DNA from: Psychrobacter piscatorii
Lineage (GTDB): Bacteria > Pseudomonadota > Gammaproteobacteria > Pseudomonadales > Moraxellaceae
Assembly (NCBI RefSeq): GCF_904846415.1
Contig: NZ_CAJHAR010000007.1
Span: 1 to 64,000 of the forward strand
Direction of reading: 5' to 3'
DNA length: 64,000 nucleotides
Shown here: positions 26,684 to 61,431 of the stretch, one piece after another
How positions within the stretch are numbered: the first letter of the stretch is position 1
Layout of the letters: the number at the start of each line of letters is the position of its first letter
Position numbers and translations under genes: made by a program
The notes under the pieces: model-generated
What the model was told of the DNA's origin: nothing
Database searches by the model: none
Seen by the model: the letters and a program-made list of their open reading frames with translations, nothing else

Positions 26684-28135
26684 TTATTTACCAATACAAA
26701 AACTACCAAATATCTTGCCGAGCAAATCATCAGCACTAAACTCGCCCGTGATTTCACCCAAGCTCTGCTGCGCTTGACGCAAGCTTTCAGCGACTAATTC
26801 ACCTGCTTGAAACACCGTTAACTGCTCATGCGCCTCTGTTAAATAGTTGGCAGTCCGTCTGAGGGCATCTATATGACGCGTACGAGCGATGAGGCTATTT
26901 TCTGGCGGATGAAAACCTACCTTTGCACATAACGCTTCGACTAAATTATCGATACCAGCACCTGTTTCACATGAAACATTGACTTGTTCGTAGCCTCTAT
27001 CTTTGATTTCAGCTTGTGTCATAAAGGCCGATTTTTCACTACTATCATCGCTTAATAGATCACTTTTATTGGCAATTATTAGTAATCGTTTGGCATCTGG
27101 CAGCTCGCCAAATAACTGCTCAGCCAATTGCAACGGTGTGCTTTCTTCTTCAACATCGCGAGTCACATCGTAAACCATCAGCAGCATATCAGCTTGGGTA
27201 ATGGCGGTGCGAGCACGTTCAATGCCGATACGCTCTACCGTGTCTTCTGTATCACGCAGGCCTGCCGTATCGGTAAGATGTAGCGTCAAACCATTGAGCA
27301 CGACCGTCTCTTGCAGCGTATCACGCGTGGTGCCTGCTACATCAGTCACGATAGCACGTTCTTGCCCCGCTAGACGATTTAGCAGGCTTGATTTACCGGC
27401 ATTTGGCCTACCTGCTAGCACAACATGGATACCATCTCGTAAGAGCTGACCTTGTTTTGCAGTGGCTAATACTTGCTGTATTTTATCTTGCGTTTGCTCA
27501 AGTTTGCTCTGTATCACGCCGTCAGATAAAAAATCGACATCTTCTTCATCAGGGAAATCAATGGCAGCTTCAACATGCAAGCGCAAATGAATCAACTGTT
27601 CTAATAGCTGATTAATCTTTTGGGAAAACTCACCACTTAGAGAGCGGATGGCACTACTCGCCGCCGCCGCACTGGTCGCATCAATCGCATCAGCGATTGC
27701 CTCTGCCTGCACCAAATCCAATTTATCGTTATCAAAAGCACGATAAGAAAACTCTCCGGCACTCGCTTGTTTGGCGCCTAACTCAAACACGCGCGCGAGC
27801 AACTGGTTCTGTAGAATAACGCCGCCGTGCCCTTGCAGCTCAATCACATCTTCACCCGTGAATGAATGCGGGCCTTTAAAGAACAATACTAGCCCTTCGT
27901 CGATAACAGTACCATCCGCCTGATAAAAACGGCAAAAACTGGCCATACGTGGCGTAAAAGCTGATTTGCCCGTGATCGCGCAAGCCATGGCATAAGCACG
28001 GCTACCTGATAGACGTATAACGCCCACACCGCCGCGTCCAAGTGGTGTTGCAATCGCAGCAATAGTGGCGAGTCCAGAGGTATTAGATTTTTCAGAATGA
28101 TTAGGTGTGGCCAAGGCCATCTCTAAGGAATCCAC
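26684..28135 (-). CDS. mnmE: tRNA modification GTPase MnmE (TrmE)
   Basis: With MnmG, MnmE installs 5-carboxymethylaminomethyl groups on U34 of tRNAs. The 483-residue protein has an N-terminal formyl-THF-binding domain (TIAAIATPLGRGGVGVIRLSG). The helical domain contains an inserted G domain: P-loop GRPNAGKSSLLNRLAG, switch/G3 DTAGLRDTED, and G4 NKSD. The C-terminal CIGK carries the invariant cysteine. The start is either GTG 28135, with TGAGAG upstream, or ATG 28120. A parS-like site lies inside the gene and encodes VSCET of the G-domain end. Confidence 0.97.
   Translation of the reverse strand: MDSLEMALATPNHSEKSNTSGLATIAAIATPLGRGGVGVIRLSGSRAYAMACAITGKSAFTPRMASFCRFYQADGTVIDEGLVLFFKGPHSFTGEDVIELQGHGGVILQNQLLARVFELGAKQASAGEFSYRAFDNDKLDLVQAEAIADAIDATSAAAASSAIRSLSGEFSQKINQLLEQLIHLRLHVEAAIDFPDEEDVDFLSDGVIQSKLEQTQDKIQQVLATAKQGQLLRDGIHVVLAGRPNAGKSSLLNRLAGQERAIVTDVAGTTRDTLQETVVLNGLTLHLTDTAGLRDTEDTVERIGIERARTAITQADMLLMVYDVTRDVEEESTPLQLAEQLFGELPDAKRLLIIANKSDLLSDDSSEKSAFMTQAEIKDRGYEQVNVSCETGAGIDNLVEALCAKVGFHPPENSLIARTRHIDALRRTANYLTEAHEQLTVFQAGELVAESLRQAQQSLGEITGEFSADDLLGKIFGSFCIGK
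26963..26978. other. parS-like site F (inside mnmE)
   Basis: TGTTTCACATGAAACA has one central change from consensus. In frame it encodes NVSCET in the mnmE G domain. Confidence 0.75.
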
Positions 28136-42933: not shown

Positions 42934-43025
42934 AGTTCGCCTCTTAATGATTATTAAAACCTACCTTAACAGTGTTGTTTGTAGCAATTACTGATATCTC
43001 AGGCTCTATTAAGAGGTTGCGAACT
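42934..43025. repeat. Imperfect inverted repeat between crotonase and cupin genes
   Basis: AGTTCGCCTCTTAAT (42934-42948) pairs with ATTAAGAGGTTGCGAACT (43008-43025) apart from a three-base bulge, around a loop of about 59 bp. The right arm overlaps the cupin stop codon. It may serve as a terminator-like fold for the convergent genes, though no U-tract follows. Confidence 0.5.
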
Positions 43026-43521
43026 ATATCTCACCCAAATCTTCCATATCCACATACTCTTTTTTACCATGGATCGTATACATCTTACGCTTGATCTCTG
43101 GATACAGGGTAATGTCAATCGGTGGTCGGCTGCCGCCCATTAGGTAAGTGGCATCGGCATCGCTATCATTGCGCATCGAGTGCGCCGCGCCATGAGCAGG
43201 GAAGCCGACGAAATCTCCAGCACTCAGCTGATAATGCTCATCACCGTAGCGCAGCGATAGCTCGCCTGACAGCACATAAATGAACTCATCGGACTCTTCA
43301 TGATAGTGATGGGTCGTCGTCTCATCGCCTGCCGCGACCCGCACCAGATGCAAGCCAAATTTGGTCAGACCGACAATATCACTGAGCGACACCGTATGGC
43401 GAATGGCGTGCTCATTGAACTGGTGGACATGCTTAGTCTCAGGCGTGTTATCGATATCGGATTTGGTCAAGACGTATGCTTGCGTATCCTTACGGGGCTG
43501 TTGGTCTGGTGTCGTCATCAT
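43024..43521 (-). CDS. Cupin-domain protein
   Basis: This 165-residue single-cupin protein has the metal-binding pattern TTHHYHEESDEFIYVLSGELSL (cupin motif 1). Motif 2 is DFVGFPAHGAAHSMRND, with a His that completes the site. Cupins of this size are often mannose-6-phosphate-isomerase-like or dioxygenase-like, but the function here is not predictable. SD AAGGAG precedes tandem ATG codons at 43521 and 43518. It converges on the crotonase gene. Confidence 0.85.
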   Translation of the reverse strand: MMTTPDQQPRKDTQAYVLTKSDIDNTPETKHVHQFNEHAIRHTVSLSDIVGLTKFGLHLVRVAAGDETTTHHYHEESDEFIYVLSGELSLRYGDEHYQLSAGDFVGFPAHGAAHSMRNDSDADATYLMGGSRPPIDITLYPEIKRKMYTIHGKKEYVDMEDLGEI

Positions 43522-43701
43522 CGGTCTCCTTGATTGATGCTTTGAGTGTATACCACTATTAGCCCATAGTATCAGGTTTGAAAAGGGACGAAATAGGCGT
43601 GATGTTGATAATCAGATAGCGGCTTTATATATCCTACATAAAGCGATTGTTGATGACGCCATTCCTGTTGTACCCTGAACCATTATTTTAAATGAAGGGG
43701 A

Positions 43702-44862
43702 ATGCGGGTGTTGTATAACTTTGATGAGGTCATCGATAGACAGAATACGGGGTCACTCAAATGGCACTATAGCGATGATACGATTCCGCTGTGGGTGGCG
43801 GATATGGATTTTAAGGCTGCACCGCCGATCTTAAACGCGATTGAGCAAGCCGTGCAGCATGGCATATTGGGCTATACCAAGCCTACCGAGGTACTGTATG
43901 ACGCGATTATTGACTGGCATGGCAGTCGCTATGAGTTGGCGCTTAAGCAATCAAATATCTTATTCTCCCCAGGTGTCGTCCCAAGCCTAGCGCTGATGAT
44001 GAACGTCTTTACCGAGGTCGGGGATGCGGTACTGGTCAATGATCCTATCTATGCGCCATTTATGAGTAAAGTGACGCAAAATGGGCGCACGCTCATCACC
44101 TCCTTATTACAAGAGAGCAAGGGTAAATATCATTTAGATTTGGCTGATATCGAAGCCAAAATAATAAAGCATGATATTAAGCTGTATTTACTCTGCAATC
44201 CGCACAATCCGGGCGGGCGCGTGTGGACGAGAGAAGAGCTCGAGGCGCTACTGACGATTTGCAAAAAGCATAATGTGGCAATTGTCAGTGATGAGATTCA
44301 TCAAGATTTAACCTTGAGCGATCACACGTTCACGCCGTTTTTGACGCTAGCAACAGGTTACGAGCACAACGTAGTCAGCCTGACCTCGATGACCAAAACC
44401 TTTAACATCGCCGGTATCAAAGGCTCGATGATCTTTGCTAAAGATGAAGGTTTACTCCAAAAAATCAGTCAACAGCAGCAGTTAAATGACGAGTATGAGC
44501 TGAATTTATTTGCGTATACAGCGATGCGTAATGCCTATGAGCAAGGCGATGAATGGTTGGCACAGGCGCTGACATATATTGAGGCTAATATTGATTTAAC
44601 CATGCAGTTTTTCGCTGAGCATCTGCCAAACATTAAGGTCATGCGTCCAGAAGCGTCCTATCTGATTTGGCTGGATTGCTCAGCGTACAGTCAAGACGAC
44701 CAAGTGCTCTATGAGGCGCTGCGTGCGGCGAGGGTAGAGCTAAACGCTGGGATCAAATATGGTGAGGAAGGGCATCTTAAAATGCGTTTGAATGTAGCTT
44801 GTCCTAGATCAGTGTTGACTGAAGGGTTACATCGTATTCAAAGCGCCTTTAGCACACTATAA
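43702..44862 (+). CDS. PatB/MalY-type pyridoxal-phosphate C-S lyase
   Basis: PatB/MalY proteins cleave cystathionine and related C-S bonds with PLP. The 386-residue protein has WVADMDFKAAPPI near the start and the PLP lysine in SLTSMTKTFNIAGIKGS (K232). CNPHNPGGRVWT and SDEIHQDL match the fold type I aminotransferase active site of this subfamily. The start may be GTG 43708 or TTG 43711 rather than ATG 43702, because AAGGGG lies too close to the ATG. The in vivo substrate is not known. Confidence 0.9.
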   Translation: MRVLYNFDEVIDRQNTGSLKWHYSDDTIPLWVADMDFKAAPPILNAIEQAVQHGILGYTKPTEVLYDAIIDWHGSRYELALKQSNILFSPGVVPSLALMMNVFTEVGDAVLVNDPIYAPFMSKVTQNGRTLITSLLQESKGKYHLDLADIEAKIIKHDIKLYLLCNPHNPGGRVWTREELEALLTICKKHNVAIVSDEIHQDLTLSDHTFTPFLTLATGYEHNVVSLTSMTKTFNIAGIKGSMIFAKDEGLLQKISQQQQLNDEYELNLFAYTAMRNAYEQGDEWLAQALTYIEANIDLTMQFFAEHLPNIKVMRPEASYLIWLDCSAYSQDDQVLYEALRAARVELNAGIKYGEEGHLKMRLNVACPRSVLTEGLHRIQSAFSTL

Positions 44863-44963
44863 AAGCGGTTATAAAGCAGATATGAAGTTTTGGTTAATGG
44901 CTGATGTGCGCGTTTAGAGATTTACTCCATGCTTCACTTGTAAGTTTTATTATAGATAGATAG

Positions 44964-44991
44964 CAAAAACCCCGCGATGGCGGAGTTTTTA
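44964..44991. terminator. Terminator between the PatB-like gene and the YadA-head gene
   Basis: Arms AAAACCCCGC / GCGGAGTTTT (one mismatch) surround a GATG loop, with a T-run on the right and A-run on the left. It lies between two convergent genes. Confidence 0.75.
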
Positions 44992-45024
44992 TTGTTTATG
45001 GAATGAGCGGTAGTTTTTCTCGTA

Positions 45025-46038
45025 TTATTGAGCAGACTTATAATAGTCAACGAGCATGGTACCTAGCGTACCATTTTCATCAATCGTCACAATACTGACT
45101 TGACCTGTCTGTGAGGCGGTACTGGATTTCACTTGGCCTGCGTTACCTAAGACGACCTGATGCTTATTAGTCGCTTTTACGCCGTTACCGATAGCGATAC
45201 TATTTAAGCCACTAGCCATTGAAATATTACCAATCGCAATAGAAGCTTCGCCCTGTGCAGCTGCCGCTTCACCAACAGCCGTTGCACGCATACCACTGGC
45301 ATTGGCTAGGTGACCAAACGCTTGCGCGCGTTCCCCCGTGGCTTTTGACTGCCAACCGATAGAGGTTGAACCCAGACCTGCCGAATTGGCTTGACCACCG
45401 ACAGCAGTCGCAGAGTTCATACCTGCGTTTGCTTGATTACCGACAGCAACAGTATCATTGGTGCCACCCGCCATTGCCGCTTCACCGACAGCGGTTGCAC
45501 GTACGCCGCTAGCATTGGCTAGATGACCGAATGCTTGAGCACGCTCAGCAGTGGCTTTTGATTGCCAACCAATCGAGGTGGAGCCCAGACCTGCGGCATT
45601 GGCTTGACCACCGACAGCGGTAGCAGAGTTCATACCTGCGTTTGCTTGGTTACCGACAGCGACGGTATCATTCGTTCCGCCTGCCATTGCCGCTTCACCA
45701 ACGGCGGTTGCACGCACACCGCTAGCATTGGCTAAATGACCGAATGCTTGAGCACGTTCAGCGGTGGCTTTTGATTGCCAACCAATCGAGGTGGAGCCTA
45801 GACCTGCTGCATTGGCTTGACCACCGACCGCAGTTGCAGAGTTCATACCGGCATTCGCTTGACTACCAAGTGCAACCGTATCATTGGTTCCACCTGCCAT
45901 AGCTTGATTGCCATAGGCCAGAGCCATTGTGCTGCCATCAGCTGCCATCACGGCGGTAGTGCTAAAAGACGCTGCGGCGACTGCTAGAGCGAGAGTACTG
46001 ATCTTTAGCGCTGAACGTGATGAGAATTCCATTTTCAT
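45025..46038 (-). CDS. Secreted YadA-head repeat protein without membrane anchor
   Basis: This 337-residue protein has a signal peptide (about 1-32). The mature part consists of YadA-like head repeats of the trimeric autotransporter family (short Ala/Gly-rich units such as ATAVGGQANAAG, SIAIGN and TAVGEAA). Three copies of a 71-residue block (residues 46-258) are nearly identical. After the head it ends with KHQVVLGNAGQV, a Ser/Thr segment and DYYKSAQ. There is no coiled-coil stalk and no C-terminal beta-barrel anchor, so it cannot insert in the outer membrane like YadA. SD AAGGA precedes ATG 46038. It may be a released or passively bound adhesin. Confidence 0.85.
   Translation of the reverse strand: MKMEFSSRSALKISTLALAVAAASFSTTAVMAADGSTMALAYGNQAMAGGTNDTVALGSQANAGMNSATAVGGQANAAGLGSTSIGWQSKATAERAQAFGHLANASGVRATAVGEAAMAGGTNDTVAVGNQANAGMNSATAVGGQANAAGLGSTSIGWQSKATAERAQAFGHLANASGVRATAVGEAAMAGGTNDTVAVGNQANAGMNSATAVGGQANSAGLGSTSIGWQSKATGERAQAFGHLANASGMRATAVGEAAAAQGEASIAIGNISMASGLNSIAIGNGVKATNKHQVVLGNAGQVKSSTASQTGQVSIVTIDENGTLGTMLVDYYKSAQ
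45265..45903 (-). repeat. Three tandem 213-bp repeats within the YadA-head gene
   Basis: Three copies of a 213-bp unit (71 codons) lie head to tail, with only scattered synonymous and a few amino-acid changes (for example S for A, M for V in the third copy). The period was confirmed by recurrence of GCAGAGTTCAT at the same phase in each copy. Such arrays can change copy number by slippage or recombination. Confidence 0.85.
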
Positions 46039-46694
46039 AATTTTTTATCCTTTTTTAAAAAACGCCCTAGGGGCTTTACAGTGGATTCGATTGGCTATTT
46101 ATAAAGACAGTAGTTCTATTGAAATCGAGTCGTTTTTAACCGAAAAACCTAACAATTGACCGCCTATGTCTGAATTTATGCTGAATGAACAACGGTAATA
46201 CGTGACTCAGTAATCAAATAAACATGACTGGATTGGCGCTCTTGCTGTCCTGATGTTATTACGCCAATCCAAGATGAACGATAAACCTATAAGCACCCAA
46301 AATAATTGCGATTTTTCGTGTAAAAACGAGAAACCCGTCCATCTGTTTTACTAGTGTTTTCGGCATCCACATTTATAATCTACATGATTACGTAACAAAG
46401 TTCGACTGATAATTAACGTCTGCTTTCAAAAAGTTACAGTCGAATTATTCAACAAAAAAAACGTAGTTTTCGTAAGGGATTTCAGACCTTATGGATACTG
46501 AGCTGTGTAAAAATACTTAACAGTAAGGGGTATAAAATAAATGATATTTAATAGCACTAAAATGCGTGCAGGAAAGCAATCAAAAGAGAGCAGCGTGGTA
46601 AATTGAAGTCAAGATTACTGAAAAAAGGGTGGTTAGCAGATGATAGCCTGTCTGAAGCTAAAGTAGATGGATGCAAATCGAAGAGTAGAAAGAA
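46039..46694. other. Gap between YadA-head and MgtC-like genes
   Basis: This is a 656-bp AT-rich gap upstream of the YadA-head gene and downstream of the MgtC-like gene. A 10-bp perfect inverted repeat, TGGATTGGCG (46229) and CGCCAATCCA (46262), with a 23-bp loop, is the only clear structure. A 21-codon frame at 46541-46606 with AGGGG upstream is open but unsupported by similarity. No RNA gene is recognised. Confidence 0.45.
46229..46271. repeat. Inverted repeat in the YadA-head upstream gap
   Basis: Perfect 10-bp arms TGGATTGGCG / CGCCAATCCA enclose 23 bp. No U-tract follows, so it is more likely an operator-like or structural element than a terminator. Confidence 0.6.
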
Positions 46695-53617: not shown

Positions 53618-55291
53618 ATGATACCTGCCTCTAACCACCTTTTTAAATATGCACTTTTGCCTACTTGTATAGCGCTGACTATGTTCGTAACTGGCTGTAG
53701 TGATAAGTCTGCAAACGATGGCACAACCACTCAATCTTCAAATATTGACCCGAATGTATTGGCTGATAAGCAAGAATTGGTTGTCAATAATGCCGCCGAG
53801 CCAGAGTCGCTGGATCCACACAAAGTATCAGGGGTTCCTGAAGCTGGTATTGATCGACAGATGTTTGAAGGTCTAACCAATACTGATGCAGATGGTAAGA
53901 CCATTCCGGGTATGGCGACCAGTTGGGAGAGTCCTGACAATAAAGTATGGACGTTTAAACTGCGTGATGCCAATTGGTCAAATGGTGATCCTGTAACAGC
54001 AGAGGACTTCGTTTATAGCCTGCGTCGTCTGGTCGATCCAAACACTGCCTCCCCTTATTCGAGCTATTTAGTCGATGCCAAAATCGTGGGCGCTGAGCAA
54101 ATCGTTGAGGGCAAAGCGGGCATAGACACGCTTGGTGTCAAAGCCATAGATGACAAGACCTTACAGGTGACTTTATCAGAGCCTGTCCCTTATTTTCCAG
54201 ATATGATGATCCATAACTCAGTCAAGCCCGTCAACCAAAAGAATGTCGAAGCGTTTGGGGATAAATGGACTGACCCTGCCAACATCGTGGTCAACGGTCC
54301 ATACAAAGTCAGCAAATGGCAAGTCAACGATCAAATCGTCCTAACGCGTAACCTTGCTTATTACGATGACGCCAATACCAAAATTGATACTGTCACGATG
54401 CTCGCGATTCCTTCTAGTACCACTGATGTGGCGCGCTATCAGGCAGGTGAGATTGACATGACCTACAATGAAATTCCGACTGAGCAGTTTGCGTCTCTCA
54501 AAGAGCAGCTCGGTGATGAGCTCACTGTCTCTCCTTATCTATGTACCTACTATTACGAGTTTAATAACGTCAAACCACCATTTGATGATGTCAAAGTGCG
54601 CCGTGCGCTCGCCTTGGCATTAGATCGTGACACGGTGGTCGATAAAGTCATCGGTCAAGGACAGACAGCAGCCTATCAGCTGACACCAACTGCGACCAAT
54701 GGTGATGTAAAAAATACGCCAGAGTGGTCAACGTGGGATAAAGAGAAGCGTCTTGCAGAAGCCAAAAAACTGCTGAATGAAGCAGGCTATAGCGAGAGCA
54801 ATCCACTAAAATTTGAGCTGCTATACAACACCAATGACCTGCATAAGAAAACGGCGCTCGCCGTCGCCTCGCTATGGAAACAATCGCTTGGCTTTGTCGA
54901 TGTCAGTTTGATCAATAAAGAATGGAAAACTTACCTCGATACGCGCCGTAATGGTAACTATCAAATCGCTCGTGCGGGCTGGTGTGGTGATTACAACGAA
55001 GCCTCAACCTTCTTAAATATCGTAAAAACAGGTAATAGTAATAACCACGGCAAATACTCCAATGCCAACTTTGACAGTCTCATGGCACAAACGCTAAAAC
55101 CAGGTGTGACGCCCGAGCAGCGTGTTGATTTATACAACAAAGCTGAGGCTGAGCTAGATAAAGACATGCCTTTATTAAATGTCTATCACTATGTCAGCCC
55201 TCGTCTCATTAAGCCTTATGTCATTGGCTTTTCTACAAAAGATGCCTTAGACAACTGGCAGGCAAAAGACTTGTCCATCGCCAAACACTGA
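53618..55291 (+). CDS. oppA: Oligopeptide ABC transporter substrate-binding lipoprotein
   Basis: OppA captures peptides in the periplasm for the OppBCDF transporter. The 557-residue protein has a lipobox at the end of its signal (MFVTGC), so it is probably a lipoprotein tethered to the membrane. The family 5 solute-binding signatures are SLDPHKVSGVPEAGIDRQMFEGL, VWTFKLRDANWSNGDPVTAEDFVYSLRRLVDP and VRRALALALDRDTVV. ATG 53618 has TAGGA six bases upstream. A strong hairpin lies between this gene and oppB. Confidence 0.92.
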   Translation: MIPASNHLFKYALLPTCIALTMFVTGCSDKSANDGTTTQSSNIDPNVLADKQELVVNNAAEPESLDPHKVSGVPEAGIDRQMFEGLTNTDADGKTIPGMATSWESPDNKVWTFKLRDANWSNGDPVTAEDFVYSLRRLVDPNTASPYSSYLVDAKIVGAEQIVEGKAGIDTLGVKAIDDKTLQVTLSEPVPYFPDMMIHNSVKPVNQKNVEAFGDKWTDPANIVVNGPYKVSKWQVNDQIVLTRNLAYYDDANTKIDTVTMLAIPSSTTDVARYQAGEIDMTYNEIPTEQFASLKEQLGDELTVSPYLCTYYYEFNNVKPPFDDVKVRRALALALDRDTVVDKVIGQGQTAAYQLTPTATNGDVKNTPEWSTWDKEKRLAEAKKLLNEAGYSESNPLKFELLYNTNDLHKKTALAVASLWKQSLGFVDVSLINKEWKTYLDTRRNGNYQIARAGWCGDYNEASTFLNIVKTGNSNNHGKYSNANFDSLMAQTLKPGVTPEQRVDLYNKAEAELDKDMPLLNVYHYVSPRLIKPYVIGFSTKDALDNWQAKDLSIAKH

Positions 55292-59919: not shown

Positions 59920-61431
59920 CTATTTGCATTGTAGCAATACCGCACAGTTCTCAAAAGCAGTACTACTACTAAACTCTCTGTTACCGAGTACCCATATTAA
60001 CGATAAATTGCTGTTTTGAGGGACGTAACGGTTATTGTCAAAGCTGACTTCACCGCGATCAATCTGATTGGCAACGATCATATAGCGTGAGGGCGAGCTA
60101 GTAAATGTATTATTCTTAACACTTAATTTTTGAATATTAAATTGCAGTAGCAGCTGACCACCTTGTTGTTTACCTAGGTCATTGTTGGTGACCGTATTAT
60201 CAATAAGAGTGATTTGTCTGACACCGCCACGTTGCTCATCATAGCCACCGACTGCGAGACCAGCATAGCTGCTATTGGTGACCGTATTGCCCTCTACCCA
60301 GACCTCCTCTGTCAACTTTTGAAAGTTTTCACTGGCGACTTCGATACCAATATCATTGCCAGTCACGGTATTGTTCTGAATAAATACTTGTTTACCACCA
60401 TCGACATAAATACCACCCGCTGAAGGATCATCACCCTTATAGCCGGGATTGCCAACGATGCTATTGCGTGTGACCGTATTGCCGATGATATCGCCTTGTC
60501 TGGCATAGTCGTTATCGGTCTCTGCTGTGCCTTCAAAACCAATGATGTCGATACCAATATTATTGTTATTATTGACTTGGTTACGGTTCACTTCAAAGTT
60601 TGTCACATCCCCATTAAGTACGATCGCTTCACTACGACCTAAGCTGAGATTTTCGACTCGATTATTATTGACCTGAATATCCCTAATAGGCTGAGTACCG
60701 TACACCGCAATGCCATGCGCATTACCATCCTCAGTGTCAGCACGCGTGCCTAAATCATGAATATAGTTGTTTTCGATGAGGATATTATGACTACTGCCAG
60801 TGACATAGATCGCAATGGGTGTGATCTGATCGTTGCTCGTCCAAAATTTAGTAAATTCTAAACCGCGGATAATCACATAAGCTTGGTTTTCGATATGAAT
60901 CAGATGCTCATCGTCAGTACTTGGCGTGCCTGTAACGACAACTTTTGCGGATGGCATTGGCTCAAAAACAATAGGCTGCGCTAGTGTGCCAGAATTTTCA
61001 ATATAGACAGGCCCTTTATAAGTACCGGCGGCAATGTGTACTGTTGTGCCAGCAGTGGCGAGATCCGCGGCTCTTTGTAGCGTCAGTACTGGCGAGTTCG
61101 CACTACCTGAGGCATTATCACTGCCTGTTGTCGCCACATAGATATGTTTGCGCGTACTGTCATCGAGCGTTAAATTATCAAGGGCTGAGCTGCGATCATA
61201 AAATGCTTGGCCACTAGATATTGGCGTCGCCGTTTCAGGCGGTGTTGGGATATTTGGTGCTGCGGGTGTGGCTGGTTCAGCAGTGGTAGGAGGCGTTGAA
61301 GCGCTTGAATCTGTATCTGAGTCGCCACCACCGCAGGCAGGCAATAGAACCACTATGGATGCAAGTAGACCAATCGGTAATAGCGTCGATGAGCGAATCT
61401 TTGAATGTAGCGCTAATTGAGTCGTTTTCAT
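59920..61431 (-). CDS. Right-handed beta-helix repeat lipoprotein
   Basis: This 503-residue protein has a lipobox at the end of its signal (LLPACGGG) and then an Ala/Pro/Thr-rich linker (about 35-75). Two-thirds of the protein is a right-handed parallel beta-helix with repeated asparagine ladders (INNNRVENLS, VNNNNNIGIDIIG, NTVTGNDIGIEVA, NNTFTSSPSRYM). HIYVATTGSDNASGSANSPVLTLQRAADLA at the start of the helix marks the family of pectate-lyase-like and polysaccharide-modifying proteins. No catalytic motif is obvious. It is probably anchored to the outer membrane and faces a polysaccharide; the substrate is unknown. Confidence 0.82.
   Translation of the reverse strand: MKTTQLALHSKIRSSTLLPIGLLASIVVLLPACGGGDSDTDSSASTPPTTAEPATPAAPNIPTPPETATPISSGQAFYDRSSALDNLTLDDSTRKHIYVATTGSDNASGSANSPVLTLQRAADLATAGTTVHIAAGTYKGPVYIENSGTLAQPIVFEPMPSAKVVVTGTPSTDDEHLIHIENQAYVIIRGLEFTKFWTSNDQITPIAIYVTGSSHNILIENNYIHDLGTRADTEDGNAHGIAVYGTQPIRDIQVNNNRVENLSLGRSEAIVLNGDVTNFEVNRNQVNNNNNIGIDIIGFEGTAETDNDYARQGDIIGNTVTRNSIVGNPGYKGDDPSAGGIYVDGGKQVFIQNNTVTGNDIGIEVASENFQKLTEEVWVEGNTVTNSSYAGLAVGGYDEQRGGVRQITLIDNTVTNNDLGKQQGGQLLLQFNIQKLSVKNNTFTSSPSRYMIVANQIDRGEVSFDNNRYVPQNSNLSLIWVLGNREFSSSTAFENCAVLLQCK

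Follow-up and report, generated by a model that had tools for sequence, protein, structure and literature searches.

Trimeric autotransporters (TAAs; type Vc, such as YadA, BpaC, and AtaA) carry heads that are usually regarded as the cargo of their own barrel, and a TAA without a barrel cannot autotransport. Two described systems come closest to the locus analyzed here. In the badA island of Bartonella henselae, the TAA gene is flanked by related partial copies, and both the pseudogene and the downstream region of the island retain an anchor (PMC8859334). SadB is an exported trimeric lipoprotein of the sadBA operon that is genetically linked to a TAA; it has a MATH-like fold, is an inner membrane protein (Asp at +2), and is encoded upstream of sadA (PMC3953254).

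Here, we analyzed a stretch of 64,000 nucleotides from Psychrobacter piscatorii (contig NZ_CAJHAR010000007.1, positions 1 to 64,000; hereafter, the window), which holds a gene for a TAA-type head that lacks an anchor. Between positions 26684 and 39185, the window also shows a gene order resembling mnmE, yidC, yidD, rnpA, dnaA, dnaN, recF, and gyrB (names from translations), which is the usual neighborhood of a chromosome origin. As in the badA island, the Psychrobacter locus can comprise a TAA gene with related partial copies around it; unlike in Psychrobacter, no conserved anchorless head lineage is described for that island, as far as its account extends (PMC8859334). The genetic link to a TAA is common to SadB and the head-only family, but the analogy is a functional one only: where SadB has a MATH-like fold, the head-only protein is a TAA-type head, and usually no TAA is seen adjoining it. 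We propose, at roughly even confidence, that a TAA head has here turned into a separate protein that acts on the periplasmic side, where a lipid would tether it in most species, whereas in the window strain it would be soluble.

Architecture and integrity of the head-only gene

The head-only gene lies at positions 45025 to 46038 on the minus strand, as do all of its features given below, and forms a complete open reading frame of 337 amino acids, as judged from the sequence, its PF05658 matches, and the same-tail relatives in 48 further Psychrobacter genomes. Its product begins with a type-I-like signal peptide (residues 1 to 32; 45943 to 46038) ending in AAASFSTTAVMA/AD, with the predicted cleavage read by eye between TTAVMA and AD. 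TRF and a comparison of the units delimit three head units at residues 52 to 122 (45673 to 45885), 123 to 193 (45460 to 45672), and 194 to 264 (45247 to 45459). The final β-roll turns (residues 265 to 298; 45145 to 45246) are placed by the best PF05658 stretch (residues 261 to 286) and by the strands of an AF2 model. After the last turn of the head, at about residue 298, there follow 39 residues and the stop (residues 299 to 337; 45025 to 45144), a conserved C-terminal tail defined by alignments and a tail profile. It ends in VTIDENGTLGTMLVDYYKSAQ, and its last 10 residues or so (MLVDYYKSAQ) occupy the place where TAAs run on into neck and anchor. The protein has no cysteine over its full length. 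Leader comparison marked the motif GGTCAATTGTTAG at −123 in the leader (46039 to 46161), and a folding calculation gave a terminator-like hairpin followed by a T-run (44966 to 44989), about 36 bases 3′ of the stop (−13.6 kcal/mol; z, −2.9), which is not in the output of a simple terminator scanner.

Pfam matches the protein to YadA_head (PF05658), the head repeat family of the type Vc TAAs, at an E value of 5e-22 over 11 stretches, and YadA_anchor (PF03895) is absent among its matches up to an E value of 1. The protein has YadA-type head repeats and, unlike the type Vc TAAs, neither a stalk nor a C-terminal YadA-like barrel anchor; most of its relatives differ from TAAs also by a lipobox-like cysteine. 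A preliminary description of this DNA had proposed just such a YadA-head protein, lacking both stalk and anchor and having about 40 residues after the head, and this was borne out by an intact frame at exactly these coordinates and on this strand. Its sequence matches in the PDB are the BpaC head (7o23; 5e-18), 3s6l (Hep_Hag), YadA (1p9h), CbpF (9u93), which we take to be a TAA, and AtaA (3wp8). Short strands recur along the AF2 monomer model, which has weak confidence (pLDDT of 62.9, falling below 50 in the tail), and Foldseek returned nothing at an E value of ≤0.001 with this single chain of weak confidence as the query.

The three blocks, which TRF reports with a period of 213 bp, 3.0 copies, and a score of 949, had been described as nearly identical and therefore likely to vary in number. 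They are indeed 89 to 97% alike as protein, but only 80 to 88% alike as DNA. This divergence, together with the observation that each block is nearest to the block of the same number in the relative L055 (for block 2 only narrowly, 0.897 versus 0.883), argues that the blocks are old rather than newly amplified. Copy number does vary between species, with three units in 5, two in 41, and one in 3 of the 49 head-only genes found (see below), but not as recent slippage in the window gene.

Since the window genome is a draft of 120 contigs, an assembly collapse or a sequencing frameshift might conceal an anchor, as the preliminary description itself had pointed out. We regard this as practically negligible. 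The blocks differ at 12 to 20% of their bases and show no sign of collapse, and head-only genes with three and two units sit in assemblies of two contigs (G002) and one contig (G065), so that repeat collapse is not supported; near-complete genomes show the same tail and stop, and a hairpin follows the stop in the window. When the C terminus of a sibling TAA (from L002) was used as the query, its match near the gene was confined to the shared head-tail stretch (45162 to 44992); it stopped at the stop region of the gene and covered no anchor. With this one C terminus as the query, a frameshifted or downstream anchor likewise had no match.

Distribution, selection, and signal types of the head-only family

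Head-only relatives, for which the preliminary description had advised a search in related genomes, are present in 49 of 105 Psychrobacter genomes, one per genome and with the window genome included. They share the tail IVTIDxNGTLGTM[LM]VDYY, whose profile matches 49 of the 105 genomes at an E value of 3e-29 or better; in G001, G076, and G101, the profile matches solely via anchored TAAs. Among the matches listed in a family search of 348 genomes, no head-only relative was found outside Psychrobacter; the two short frames examined, in G299 and G216, are cut at contig ends. Of further candidates, L116 (G292) is likewise cut, and the protein of G524 reads through to an anchored-type C terminus. 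A tail search of 293 genomes from the order gave four matches, three of them in Psychrobacter and one to a protein with an anchored-type C terminus. Plasmid matches comprised 51 records, each at less than 60% identity, of which the two inspected (Sulfitobacter and Croceicoccus) end like anchored TAAs by eye, and there was no phage match at an E value of 1e-5. Among the matches listed from open-access titles and abstract openings, none concerned anchorless TAA heads or head lipoproteins, which leaves the absence of such reports unproven.

The family is under purifying selection. Nei-Gojobori counts pooled over all pairs of 47 genes (L075 and L095 left out), pairs that are not independent of one another, gave low dN/dS values in the head (0.07), the tail (0.08), and the last residues (0.11), and a value of 0.29 in signal plus linker. 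Between the heads of the window gene and L055, there are 62.5 synonymous changes over 193.5 sites and 3.5 nonsynonymous changes over 544.5 sites. The relaxed selection of a pseudogene is therefore not seen in head or tail, and the gene looks like a retained working protein rather than a broken one. That the head is of the same type as in the sibling TAA, and that L075 and L095 have no readable N terminus, would fit a decaying fragment of an anchored TAA, yet we consider such decay very improbable given the low dN/dS values, the family's own conserved tail, and its spread over 49 genomes. One same-tail relative in each of these genomes argues against artefact and decay alike.

Most of the family differs from the window gene in its signal peptide. 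Using a pattern that we took to be of the PROSITE lipoprotein type, we found that 40 of the 49 head-only genes encode a signal peptide with a lipobox-like cysteine; seven genes, the window clade (window and L055 to L060), have type-I-like signals, and two (L075 and L095) have no readable signal. The pattern matched none of the 52 open reading frames of the window, nor, at the likely start, any of 15 sibling TAAs. Its sensitivity is imperfect, as two lipoprotein-like proteins of the window (53618 to 55291 and 59920 to 61431) fail to match; the second of these is a β-helix protein (PF13229) with a lipoprotein-like N terminus (LLPAC) outside the pattern used. In a DNA tree from which the signal peptide was excluded, the 40 lipobox genes and the two genes without a readable signal form one group (98/94). 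Within this group, all 40 readable members have the cysteine (codon TGC in 37 and TGT in 3), whereas positions −1, −2, and −3 before it vary; the signal region has nine further columns without variation. The window clade has serine (six genes) or glycine (one gene) at this position, and its serine codon AGC is one base away from TGC.

The window protein itself has no lipobox cysteine. In the relatives, the lipobox is weakened by a threonine at −3 in 35 of the 40 genes, which is unusual against the consensus, and a possible type I site lies just after the cysteine. These two features kept our confidence in the lipidation of the lipobox-bearing relatives at fairly good rather than high; still, a lipobox-like cysteine in 40 of 49 genes suggests that most of the family is probably lipid-tethered. 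The "free" head protein of the preliminary description would thus probably be wrong for most of the family, while the window clade lacks a cysteine at this place. Seen across the genus, it is quite possible, though a shade short of even, that a TAA passenger has become a stand-alone lipoprotein in Psychrobacter by swapping its C-terminal β-barrel for an N-terminal lipid anchor, with the window clade having neither.

How the two signal types arose depends on the tree considered. In the protein tree, the type I genes are nested among the lipobox genes, although a single lipobox clade is not rejected (AU p, 0.37); in the DNA tree, lipobox and type I genes each form one group (98/94 and 99/98). 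A quick N-terminal tree (without L075, L095, L056_TAA, and L103_TAA) groups the type I heads with TAAs, and a quick tree of neighbor genes, covering 46 of 53 loci after seven with sparse neighbor genes were left out, places the type I strains at three positions. The cysteine may have been gained once and later lost or transferred, or signals may have been exchanged with the sibling TAA.

Anchored sibling TAAs

In 12 of the 49 head-only loci, the fetched stretch also contains an anchored TAA with this type of head, a lower bound, since several stretches reach contig ends. One of the 12, in L056, holds an in-frame TGA; L065 has a broken sibling, and in G098 the sibling is on another contig. The siblings in L055 (10055 to 11812) and L058 (9507 to 11312) share with the window protein an ERAQAFGH-type head unit and the junction NQxVLGNAGQ...IVTxDxNGTLGT, and sibling TAA signals resemble those of the head-only genes of the window clade. 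Unlike the window protein, these two siblings are 585 and 601 amino acids long and have a C-terminal YadA_anchor match, at 25.0 bits in L055 and at 21.5 bits, just under the cutoff of 22.7, in L058. Head-only genes and TAAs are distinct lineages over the stretch of 92 residues that they share, splitting at 100/100 in the protein tree and 100/96 in the DNA tree; L055_TAA and L079_TAA were left out of the C-terminal trees.

Between ECH and guaA (43024 to 46038 in the window, and L055 to L106), lineages differ in how the head-only, TAA, cupin, and patB-like genes are ordered: relative to patB, the head gene lies toward ECH in most lipobox loci and toward guaA in the window clade. A RES-domain protein (PF08808; 49167 to 50213) has a match in the L058 stretch and none in the L055 stretch. 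Many leaders, though not all, contain a short inverted repeat of the AAGCC..GGCTT type just 5′ of the AAAAGGAT ribosome site, before head-only and TAA genes alike (e.g., L058 TAA, L060, and L069). On contigs 29, 51, 59, and 69 of the window genome (G000), there are other TAAs with YadA_anchor matches, two of which are complete long frames of 2,887 and 1,977 amino acids.

In the window strain, no sibling TAA lies beside the head-only gene, although its near relative L055 has one. An anchored counterpart of the kind that the preliminary description considered is present at 12 of the 49 head-only loci but does not adjoin the window gene. Together with this absence, the leader motif points to a loss: of five sibling TAA genes tested, three (in L058, L059, and L060) have it 117 to 119 bases ahead of the gene (−117 to −119), and none of six head genes tested has it. 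The window leader aligns to the L060 TAA leader with a score of 84 (shuffle maximum, 26), but to those of the L055, L058, and L059 TAAs at 29 to 33, no better than to head leaders (29 to 43). With the leader evidence mixed, we conclude with moderate confidence that the window strain probably deleted its anchored sibling.

The proximity of head-only genes and TAAs raises the question of whether the head-only protein might serve as a periplasmic accessory factor for anchored TAAs, by analogy with SadB for SadA. An anchored TAA match (E value, ≤0.001) is present in 47 of 49 head-only genomes, compared to 35 of the 56 others (Fisher p, 3e-5), and the sibling nearby in 12 loci would also fit. However, this association is confounded by shared descent, the gene is strongly conserved in the 37 of 49 loci without a sibling seen beside it (contig ends truncate some of these stretches), and the draft genomes G036 and G058 have no anchor match at all. 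An accessory role therefore seems rather improbable to us.

Export route and cellular location

Having no barrel, the head-only protein cannot autotransport. The head-only lineage shares its head type with the neighboring anchored TAA gene, and its product stops where TAAs enter the neck. On the proposed path to the periplasmic side, this protein would be exported by Sec, fold as a β-roll, probably as a trimer, and, lacking the barrel that autotransport requires, would function on the periplasmic side, on a lipid tether in most species and in soluble form in the window strain, which probably deleted its sibling. It is tempting to speculate that its role in the envelope is structural or one of binding.

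Alternatively, the head might fold in the periplasm and then leave it through the type II system or by some other path, to act at the surface or outside the cell as an adhesin, a matrix protein, or a decoy, the last two being roles suggested in the preliminary description. Known TAA heads are adhesive, and all five PDB matches of the window protein are to TAA or Hep_Hag head proteins. A type II secretin scored over the cutoff in 46 of the 49 head-only genomes, including that of the window, so that export may occur, but this says little, since almost all Psychrobacter genomes (91 of 105) have such a secretin. Slam (PF04575), the route of Slam-dependent surface lipoproteins, has no match in the window genome at an E value of ≤1e-5 and is found in 7 of the 49 head-only genomes; with no match in the other 42, it was rejected as the surface route. 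Three head-only genomes (G015, G068, and G070), whose assemblies are all about 99 to 100% complete, keep intact lipobox head genes (L091, L099, and L096, respectively) with neither Slam nor a secretin over the cutoff. This favors a function on the periplasmic side, and we consider a secreted or surface-exposed head unlikely, albeit worth keeping in mind.

If the head indeed acts on the periplasmic side, a conserved TAA-type head would get to its place without autotransport, and the window clade would work without either anchor. Purifying selection on the head-only lineage across the genus suggests that TAA-type heads are useful without the barrel. The family would thus offer natural sets of anchored, lipid-type, and soluble-type proteins, occurring in mostly environmental bacteria, with which one could tell apart what anchor, tether, and head each contribute.
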